Source of the DNA: an uncultured Saprospiraceae bacterium
Lineage (GTDB): Bacteria > Bacteroidota > Bacteroidia > Chitinophagales > Saprospiraceae
NCBI GenBank assembly: GCA_937961455.1
Contig: CALGNN010000126.1
Location: 1 to 43,569, forward strand
DNA length: 43,569 nt
Direction of reading: 5' to 3'
Position 1 is the first letter of the stretch. Each line of letters begins with the position of its first letter. The translations under genes were made by a program, and so were the position numbers. Of this stretch, positions 1,580 through 6,770 are shown piece by piece. The notes under the pieces were generated by a model that saw only the letters and a program-made list of their open reading frames with translations, was not told the DNA's origin and did no database searches.

Positions 1580-1610
1580 AAAAAAAAAGCCCTGACTAAA
1601 AAATCAGGAC
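1580..1610 (-). terminator. Intrinsic terminator of the pheA attenuator
   Basis: Read on the minus strand, GTCCTGA (1610-1604) pairs with TCAGGGC (1595-1589) as a 7-bp stem with one G.U pair and an 8-base loop, followed by nine T (1588-1580). The pheA ATG begins 4 bases after the T-run. A strong terminator between a leader ORF and the start codon of the gene it serves makes sense only as a conditional element. Its 5' arm can also pair with an upstream segment at 1646-1652. Confidence 0.88.
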
Positions 1611-1652
1611 TTTTAAAATTTTATGTTGATACATATATTCTTATTGCCCCGA
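1604..1652 (-). promoter_or_regulatory. Candidate antiterminator pairing of the pheA leader
   Basis: On the minus strand, TCGGGGC (1652-1646), which overlaps the last leader-peptide codons, can pair over its whole length with GTCCTGA (1610-1604), the 5' arm of the terminator. This gives 7 pairs, two of them G.U, and excludes the terminator. A ribosome finishing the peptide at the stop codon (1643-1641) would cover TCGGGGC and let the terminator form. A ribosome stalled at the Phe or Tyr codons would leave it free. A weaker pairing of TTTCGA (1665-1660) with TCGGGG could sequester the segment when nothing is translated. The pairing is seen in the sequence; the mechanism is inferred from classical pheA/trp attenuation. 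Confidence 0.7.
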
Positions 1653-1703
1653 CGGTTTATCGAAATAGCCAAAAAAATAATATGCATTAAAAAATCTATT
1701 CAT
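1641..1703 (-). CDS. pheL: Phe/Tyr-rich leader peptide of the pheA operon
   Basis: This short ORF encodes MNRFFNAYYFFGYFDKPSGQ: 20 residues with 5 Phe (codons 4, 5, 10, 11, 14) and 3 Tyr (8, 9, 13), so eight of the eleven residues from 4 to 14 are aromatic. It sits directly upstream of a terminator that abuts pheA. Its last codons contain the segment that can form an antiterminator. This is the layout of enterobacterial pheL, but the peptide sequence is different. Having both Phe and Tyr codons fits an operon serving both amino acids, as the aminotransferase suggests. No convincing Shine-Dalgarno precedes the ATG, which is normal in this phylum. A near-consensus -7 box lies 11 bases upstream. 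The ORF is recognised by composition and position, not by homology. Confidence 0.82.
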   Translation of the reverse strand: MNRFFNAYYFFGYFDKPSGQ

Positions 1704-1714
1704 CGTTGCAAGGT

Positions 1715-1722
1715 TAAAGATA
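1715..1722 (-). promoter_or_regulatory. Possible -7 box of the pheL-pheA transcript
   Basis: On the minus strand TATCTTTA matches the Bacteroidota TAnnTTTG element except for the last base. It lies 11 bases before the leader-peptide ATG, similar to the spacing of the exact boxes before trpB (12) and galK (9). No clear -33 element is seen, so this is tentative. Confidence 0.4.
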
Positions 1723-5528: not shown

Positions 5529-6770
5529 TTATGAATAATACAGTTTTTCGAAATCTTTGTAAAAATGGGGATATGATTTGGCTACACATTCTGCATTGTC
5601 AATTTCAATAGGTCCTGTTGCATTCAAACCAGCAATGGCTAAACACATAGCAATTCTGTGATCATGCCTCCCATGTACTATTGCTCCGCGTATAGGTCCT
5701 CCTTCAATTAACATCGTGTTTTGTTCTTTCCAAACCTTTATGCCTAGTTTAGAAAATTCTTCTTTTATAGTCGTGTATCTATCACTTTCCTTGTGGGTTA
5801 ATCTTTCTACTCCATTAATCCTGCTGATCCCTTTGCAATTAGCTGCCAATGCTGCAATCGGAGGGAATAAATCTGGACAATCCATTGCATCAAAGTTGAA
5901 TGCATGTAATTCATTTTTTTCAATTACCACATTTCCATTTTCAATTAATACAGTGGCTCCTGCTCTTTTAACGGCATCCAAAATTGCAATGTCTGCCTGA
6001 ACAGATTCAGGGTTAATCCTAGATAAAGTGGCTTTGCCCGAGATGGCCGCACCGACAACATGAAAACTTGCACCACTCCAATCGCCTTCTATTTCATAAG
6101 ATCTTCCTGTATAATTTTGTGAACCTTGAATGTTGAATATTTTATAATCCTGATGACTAACTTCTACGCCAAAAGAATTCAGGATATCAATGGTGATGTC
6201 TATGTAAGGTTTGCTGCTTAGATTGCTTACTTCGATCTGAGAATCCCCTGAAATTAACGGCAGTGCAATTAATAATCCTGTTAATACTTGAGAAGTCTCA
6301 GATCCATCAATCTTAAATCGACCTCCTTTAATGGGTCCTTTCAATTTTATGGGTATGTAATCTCCATTTCCTTCAGCCCATCCTCCAGCATTAACAATAC
6401 CTTCTATGATCATATGCATGGGTCGAGTCTTCAAGGAGCCTGAACCAGTCAGGACTAATTGTTGGTCATAGAGCGCAGCAATAGAGGCAAACAATCTGAG
6501 GCTGGTTCCTGATTCACCAGCATCCAAAGGAAGGCCAGTAGGCACTCCTAGTTTTTCTATTGTAATCTCATTATTAATTTGTTCAACTTTGCAACCTAAA
6601 TTTCTAATAATATCCATTGAAGCTAATCCATCTTTTGATAAAGAGGGGTTGCTTATAATGGATTTACCTTTTGCAAGTGAAGCAATAGCCATAGCCCTTT
6701 GCATATAACTTTTAGAAGGAGGTATTGCTATTTGTCCTTTAGCTGTTCCTTGCTTGATTAATTTCTTCAT
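5529..6770 (-). CDS. aroA: 3-phosphoshikimate 1-carboxyvinyltransferase (EPSP synthase)
   Basis: This enzyme transfers enolpyruvyl from PEP to shikimate-3-phosphate, shikimate pathway step 6. The 413-residue protein carries the family signatures: PPSKSYMQRAMAIASL at the N-terminus (PEP/S3P-binding Lys-Ser), GESGTSLR, DGSETSQVLTGLL, the catalytic Asp region CPDLFPPIAALAA, KESDRYTT, DHRIAM and the C-terminal KSYPHF. It is slightly shorter than the usual 420-430 residues but nothing essential is missing. The ATG at 6770 lies 32 bases inside the 3' end of the aroE-aroK gene. The binding motif begins only 16 residues into the protein, which makes a later start unlikely, so the overlap appears real. 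It is the last gene of the four-gene aro cluster. Chorismate synthase (aroC) is not in the window. Confidence 0.96.
   Translation of the reverse strand: MKKLIKQGTAKGQIAIPPSKSYMQRAMAIASLAKGKSIISNPSLSKDGLASMDIIRNLGCKVEQINNEITIEKLGVPTGLPLDAGESGTSLRLFASIAALYDQQLVLTGSGSLKTRPMHMIIEGIVNAGGWAEGNGDYIPIKLKGPIKGGRFKIDGSETSQVLTGLLIALPLISGDSQIEVSNLSSKPYIDITIDILNSFGVEVSHQDYKIFNIQGSQNYTGRSYEIEGDWSGASFHVVGAAISGKATLSRINPESVQADIAILDAVKRAGATVLIENGNVVIEKNELHAFNFDAMDCPDLFPPIAALAANCKGISRINGVERLTHKESDRYTTIKEEFSKLGIKVWKEQNTMLIEGGPIRGAIVHGRHDHRIAMCLAIAGLNATGPIEIDNAECVAKSYPHFYKDFEKLYYS

Follow-up and report, generated by a model that had tools for sequence, protein, structure and literature searches.

Does the DNA directly upstream of pheA in this uncultured Saprospiraceae bacterium form an attenuator, in which translation of a leader peptide rich in phenylalanine and tyrosine would decide whether transcription continues into the operon? 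The window, i.e., the whole 43.6-kb stretch that was analysed, carries on its minus strand an open reading frame of 20 codons (positions 1703 to 1641), encoding MNRFFNAYYFFGYFDKPSGQ and ending in a stop codon. It comprises five Phe and three Tyr residues, every one of them within codons 4-14, as the initial annotation had read letter for letter, and it is kept in relatives. The operon is therefore preceded by a short, translated-looking frame that is rich in codons for the operon's products, its translation being a prediction. The Bacteroidota -7 element has the consensus TAnnTTTG. A promoter-like candidate, TATCTTTA (1722-1715, minus strand), is located 11 nt 5' of the leader ATG and matches this consensus at only 7 of the 8 positions, which we count against the explanation developed below. 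Further 5' on the same strand, a 95-residue ORF (1756-2043) yields no Pfam match at an E-value of 0.001.

Between the leader and pheA there is an intrinsic terminator (1614-1585, minus strand), a predicted hairpin with a GC-bearing core and four A-U pairs beneath it (-15.5 kcal/mol, z -5.5). It had been described as a 7-bp hairpin and is extended here to 13 bp; the run of nine T (1588-1580), followed by four bases and then by the pheA ATG at 1575, was borne out. The last leader codons contain GTCGGGGC (1653-1646; segment 2), which would form the 5' strand of an antiterminator by pairing with the 5' arm of the terminator (1610-1603; segment 3). The annotated pairing of TCGGGGC (1652-1646) with GTCCTGA (1610-1604) indeed extends over all seven bases and includes two G-U pairs; RNAduplex lengthens it to eight. 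The duplex between segments 2 and 3 is predicted at -12.1 kcal/mol (p 0.005 when the segment is shuffled 200 times), and the stretch from 1655 to 1600, containing two inner helices, folds at -13.7 kcal/mol (z -3.7). A third partner, segment 1 (1669-1659), lies inside codons 12-15; in the minimum-energy fold predicted for the transcript without a ribosome, the bases of these codons pair with segment 2 to give a 1:2 hairpin. Both strands of the window were scanned with a fixed rule for such modules (an ATG-initiated ORF of 8-40 residues with at least six Phe or Tyr within 11 residues, and a terminator within 110 nt). Exactly one module was found, that of pheA, and 20 dinucleotide shuffles of the window, both strands of each, contained none.

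The gene that follows, pheA (1575-718, minus strand), encodes a prephenate dehydratase (Pfam PF00800, PDT; E-value 8.9e-55). The second gene of the operon, a class I/II aminotransferase (782-3, minus strand; PF00155), is cut by the end of the contig, which the window spans in full, and the contig stops before any gene for prephenate dehydrogenase or DAHP synthase/chorismate mutase. Three relatives (L216, L217 and L218) show the order pheA, aminotransferase, prephenate dehydrogenase and a DAHP synthase fused to chorismate mutase, with the aminotransferase assigned by Pfam in L216 and L217, as in the window, and present as an ORF in L218. In these relatives the operon encodes enzymes for Phe as well as Tyr synthesis, in keeping with a leader that contains codons for the two amino acids. 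Another gene of the chorismate pathway, the EPSP synthase gene aroA (5529-6770), is found on the same (minus) strand about 4 kb upstream of pheA, from which it is separated by a gene for a two-component regulator-like protein (5425-2249).

The conservation of the element was assessed in the regions upstream of pheA in related genomes. The family sample of 105 regions consists of 104 matches, less a fragment (G038) and a match at a contig edge (G139), plus three regions from the search of the order. Outside the family, the order search gave 38 matches, of which 30 enter the main counts; of the others, L195 was also included, and has the module, and 7 were left out. The phylum sample comprises 65 loci from 257 genomes with a match, picked by similarity and spread. 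When at least five Phe or Tyr in 11 residues were required, 116 of the 135 regions from family and order had a leader and terminator before pheA; the same rule gave no hit on any of the 135 opposite strands or in any of 675 shuffles. With at least six, they are present in 88 of the 105 family regions, in 23 of 30 regions from other families of the order and, taken together, in 29 of 39 from other orders of the class. The latter are distributed among five families: f19 (7 of 7), f21 (17 of 21, with a leader in all 21), f24 (3 of 7), f25 (2 of 2) and f27 (0 of 2, both with a leader). Other classes with a similar PheA contribute the module in 6 of 7 regions, one of which, the locus L167, has its leader more than 500 nt from the match. 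The distant members of the phylum lack the module by this rule (0 of 18), as do the opposite strands of the loci from the phylum search (0 of 65), and the three Bacteroidota loci among the 12 from a search of named genomes include none with the full module. Within the family, 12 of the 105 regions contain no leader by the rule, a few of them being shortened by contig ends. The same is true of 4 of the 7 regions of f24; in three of these four, pheA appears by eye to lie directly 3' of an aroA-like gene.

Across the leaders of the relatives, Phe and Tyr replace one another and occur in varying order. In-frame TTY/TAY codons outnumber TTR/TAR codons by 1134 to 6, a ratio that reflects bias from the selection rule and hence is no evidence of translation. 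The alternative pairing is retained as well. In 140 modules (at least six Phe or Tyr in 11 residues, with a detected terminator), the leader end pairs with its own terminator arm at a mean of -10.9 kcal/mol, compared to -7.7 for permuted partners (z -19.7, a value inflated by relatedness), and in 113 of the 140 the pairing is better than 95% of shuffles. A MAFFT alignment was prepared of 28 modules from the family, selected because a Tyr codon and an AG/GG codon occupy set positions ahead of their stop. Double changes occur in 6 of 7 terminator pairs, as many as reached by 1 of 500 shuffles, and in 5 of 6 antiterminator pairs (11 of 500 shuffles). The covariation score of the antiterminator is reached by 12 of 500 shuffles and its number of further pair types by 90 of 500; its covariation in this alignment is weaker than that of the terminator. 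RNAalifold recovered the terminator and a hairpin at the leader stop codon from the same 28 modules and left out the competing pairings, since one structure cannot hold both. The comparison that had been proposed as a check on the leader, namely whether relatives keep an aromatic-rich ORF, a terminator and an alternative pairing upstream of pheA, thus came out in its favor, with covariation in addition.

The hairpin across the leader stop is a characteristic feature of the relatives, typically TTATGG-NNNN-CCATAA. In 65 of 133 family leaders, the fifth codon from the end (the stop being counted) begins with TA, and the third base of this codon and that of the codon before the stop are T/A in 37 cases, C/G in 22, T/G in 0, C/A in 0 and other combinations in 6, counts for which relatedness would inflate any p-value. 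Pairing of this helix amounts to 94.6% in the alignment of 28 modules, and none of 500 shuffles attains its covariation score; its count of doubly changed pairs is attained by 37 of them and its count of pair types by 451. A second helix in the relatives joins an AGC-like codon with GCT 3' of segment 2 (66% paired; permutation z -8.6). The leader peptides of the family often have a conserved C-terminus (FYGQP before the stop, and similar endings), which we attribute to the constraint that the two helices place on the RNA. Neither helix appears in the register of the relatives in the predicted folds of the window, which has its own 1:2 hairpin instead, and its leader is without an FYGQP-like C-terminus. 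We found no description of a covarying hairpin across a leader stop in the literature searched. As a speculation, the stop hairpin (e.g., in L036, L014 and L018) may also serve as a pause hairpin for RNA polymerase.

The effect of ribosome position was predicted from folds of a transcript cut just past the 5' arm of the terminator, the ribosome being represented as a block over the 15 nt that precede the A-site codon and over 14 nt starting with that codon's first base. With this 14-nt footprint, the probability of the antiterminator in the window is 0.94-1.00 for a ribosome at any position from F4 to Y13, 0.75 at F14, 0.14 at the stop codon and 0.18 without a ribosome. The value for F14 is sensitive to the footprint (1.00 at 12 nt and 0.04 at 17 nt), and that for the stop is 0.17 and 0.13, respectively. 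Over the 140 modules, the mean probability is 0.73 at aromatic codons versus 0.08 at the stop, and 0.23 versus 0.14 for controls with a shuffled segment. Without a ribosome the mean is 0.45 (above 0.5 in 75 of the 140), so that the untranslated state of the window would not be general. The three states of classical attenuation emerge from these cut-transcript folds, in which the proposed geometry works as described in the initial annotation: a ribosome at the stop is predicted to cover TCGGGGC and a stalled one to leave it free. The complete leader was also folded at equilibrium with the ribosome masked in; the finished terminator then prevails wherever the ribosome stands (probability 1.00), and this approach was dropped as a test of the switch in favor of the cut transcripts. 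The switch must therefore be kinetic, resting on the order of synthesis. In the constrained folds the antiterminator would exclude the terminator and be blocked by a ribosome at the leader stop, and covariation points the same way, although the equilibrium fold shows no switch.

Given these parts, their conservation and covariation, and the folding logic predicted for them, we infer leader translation, switching kinetics and a response to Phe and Tyr, as follows. RNA polymerase and the first ribosome would advance together through the leader. When charged tRNA-Phe or tRNA-Tyr is scarce, the ribosome would stall at codons 4-14 and leave segment 2 free to pair with segment 3 before the 3' arm of the terminator exists; with the antiterminator formed, transcription would proceed into pheA and the aminotransferase gene. 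In good supply, the ribosome would reach the stop codon and cover segment 2, so that the terminator forms and transcription stops near position 1580. If the leader is not translated, segment 1 would occupy segment 2 and the terminator would likewise form. Comparison and folding thus both support the leader-peptide reading, and the element is very probably a ribosome-mediated transcription attenuator of the Phe/Tyr operon. Attenuation of this type presumes tight coupling between the first ribosome and RNA polymerase, and the element family means that such coupling can be tested in a phylum remote from E. coli.

The window contains a single module, as do many of the relatives, and in 30 of 101 family regions (loci among L014-L137; the 105 regions less four with under 450 nt upstream) two leaders, each with its own terminator, are arranged in tandem upstream of pheA. 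Tandem modules are found in 0 of 30 regions from other families of the order. Both regions of f25 (L156 and L180), another family of the class, also have two leaders before pheA. The consensus TAnnTTTG occurs within 90 nt 5' of the first leader in 28 of the 30 tandem relatives; the opposite strand of this interval carries it in 4 of them, and the segment from one leader start to the next in only 2. In single-module family regions it lies within the same distance 5' of the leader in 38 of 63. This distribution suggests that one promoter most likely serves both modules. An origin of the tandem by an old duplication may be considered: a first comparison of 36 two-leader genomes (8 of them with one terminator undetected) favored it in 35, by setting one pair against the best of 35, and a fairer test gave a mixed result. 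Of the 406 pairs that 29 genomes form, 319 had position-matched modules scoring above cross-matched ones, but only 164 had them above the within-genome pairs. We consider it probable that the element of the window is the single-copy form of a class-wide family of Phe/Tyr attenuators, which in part of this bacterial family would have become a two-stage switch, with two leaders for the same signal, one promoter and two terminators to escape, and that in many modules a ribosome at the stop would at once open the covarying hairpin between stop and Tyr codon and cover segment 2. With the tandem form, it would be possible to ask in a natural setting whether a series of two like sensors sharpens a response or cuts its leak.

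Other explanations of the same features were weighed against attenuation. The hairpin could be simply the terminator of the upstream ORF (2043-1756), downstream of which it lies on the same strand, with the T-rich short ORF a coincidence. This is scarcely credible, as the hairpin is situated some 140 nt beyond the stop of that ORF with the leader in between, an aromatic-rich ORF and terminator recur before pheA in the 116 of 135 regions and in none of the 675 shuffles, and the end of the leader shows covariation with the arm of the terminator. The leader peptide itself could be the effector, arresting the ribosome in the manner of TnaC or acting in trans, in which case its codons would not sense charged tRNA; the frequent conservation of the C-terminus in the family would be expected on this account. 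That conservation is explained by RNA pairing, as reflected in the third-base combinations given above (T/A in 37 cases and C/G in 22, with no T/G or C/A), the leader of the window is without such a C-terminus, and Phe and Tyr interchange in variable order, all of which renders an active nascent peptide very improbable.

The element could also work mainly on translation, since the hairpin of the window ends at 1585, 10 nt before the pheA ATG at 1575, and might hide the start, which the antiterminator would then expose. In the family, the distance from the end of the last terminator to the most upstream in-frame ATG has a median of 25 nt and does not exceed 15 nt in 12 of the 84 regions, close enough for an effect in some of them, so that distance was given up as an argument against this reading. 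The run of nine T is nevertheless the mark of an intrinsic terminator, T runs being part of the rule that the relatives satisfy, and the upstream one of two tandem terminators cannot reach the pheA start. We therefore regard translational control in place of attenuation as unlikely, and the two effects could act together.

Transcription attenuation also seems to be a habit of the source organism, judging from two further leaders in the same genome. On contig C96 (locus L173, 1198-1311), a His leader, MKINQLHHHHLLNRLRA followed by a stop codon, precedes hisG (identified by Pfam) together with a terminator, and the pairing of its end with the arm of the terminator exceeds that of shuffled sequences, only 5 of 500 being as low. 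On contig C14 (L174, 798-909), a Trp leader, MINKNWWWLNTFDKSRRD and a stop codon, is followed by a strong terminator just before a gene for a chorismate-binding protein, which was taken for trpE; the best antiterminator found for this leader does not stand out from chance, an equally low value arising in 56 of 500 shuffles.

The suggestion that a Phe/Tyr leader in this phylum may be undescribed was only partly right. In a study of Flavobacterium psychrophilum, a structured element 5' of pheA is reported to be shared by genera of the Flavobacteriaceae, and the parts available also give clues for leader-peptide attenuation before amino-acid operons (PMC9723704). The element of the window thus belongs to a known kind: the two share a structured region before pheA within one phylum, and their identity is likely, the published element being given in the available text without sequence or model. 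For Chitinophagales, no paper on pheA leaders was found in the literature searched. The work of Lopatovskaya et al. from 2010, cited in PMC4833913, may contain earlier predictions for the phylum. No Rfam family, including T-box, riboswitches and Phe leader, reaches its gathering threshold in the window or in eight related or own-genome loci. Among 32 sub-threshold matches, most of them probably due to chance, are Trp_leader (RF00513; 21 bits, 41 needed) and Bacteroid-trp (RF01692; 24.6 bits, 49 needed), so that the element is a member of neither. By its Rfam description, the Bacteroid-trp RNA is likewise found in Bacteroidota as the leader of an operon for an aromatic amino acid, Trp as opposed to Phe/Tyr (PMC2864571, as far as available). 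The Leu/phe leader of Lactococcus lactis (RF01743), which is a Leu/Phe leader by name, belongs to the Firmicutes and is absent from the window's sub-threshold matches (same source).

No tandem leader-peptide attenuators for the same signal before an amino-acid operon were found in the literature searched; the effect of tandem regulatory RNAs in general is raised in a remark on tandem glnA RNAs (PMC2864571, in part). The Salmonella mgtCBR leader has two short ORFs in one leader RNA, like the tandem relatives, and according to the portions consulted these sense ATP and proline, respectively, with stem-loops unlike intrinsic terminators (PMC3641672). The tandem relatives differ in having two Phe/Tyr leaders, each with an intrinsic terminator, and the window has one module. 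The rimP leader of several Gammaproteobacteria includes a second terminator in tandem, as they do, and, in what was available of the report, involves neither an amino-acid operon nor leader peptides that sense a pathway product (PMC2965389).

The present family provides a defined and conserved example of leader-peptide attenuation, as we read it, for Phe/Tyr synthesis in Bacteroidota, one that no Rfam family matches. The enterobacterial pheL-pheA and trpL attenuators combine product codons in the leader, 1:2, 2:3 and 3:4 pairings and a terminator with a U-run, all of which have counterparts in the element of the window. It differs from them in that Phe and Tyr control codons occur together, and that segment 2 is located inside or directly after the last leader codons.
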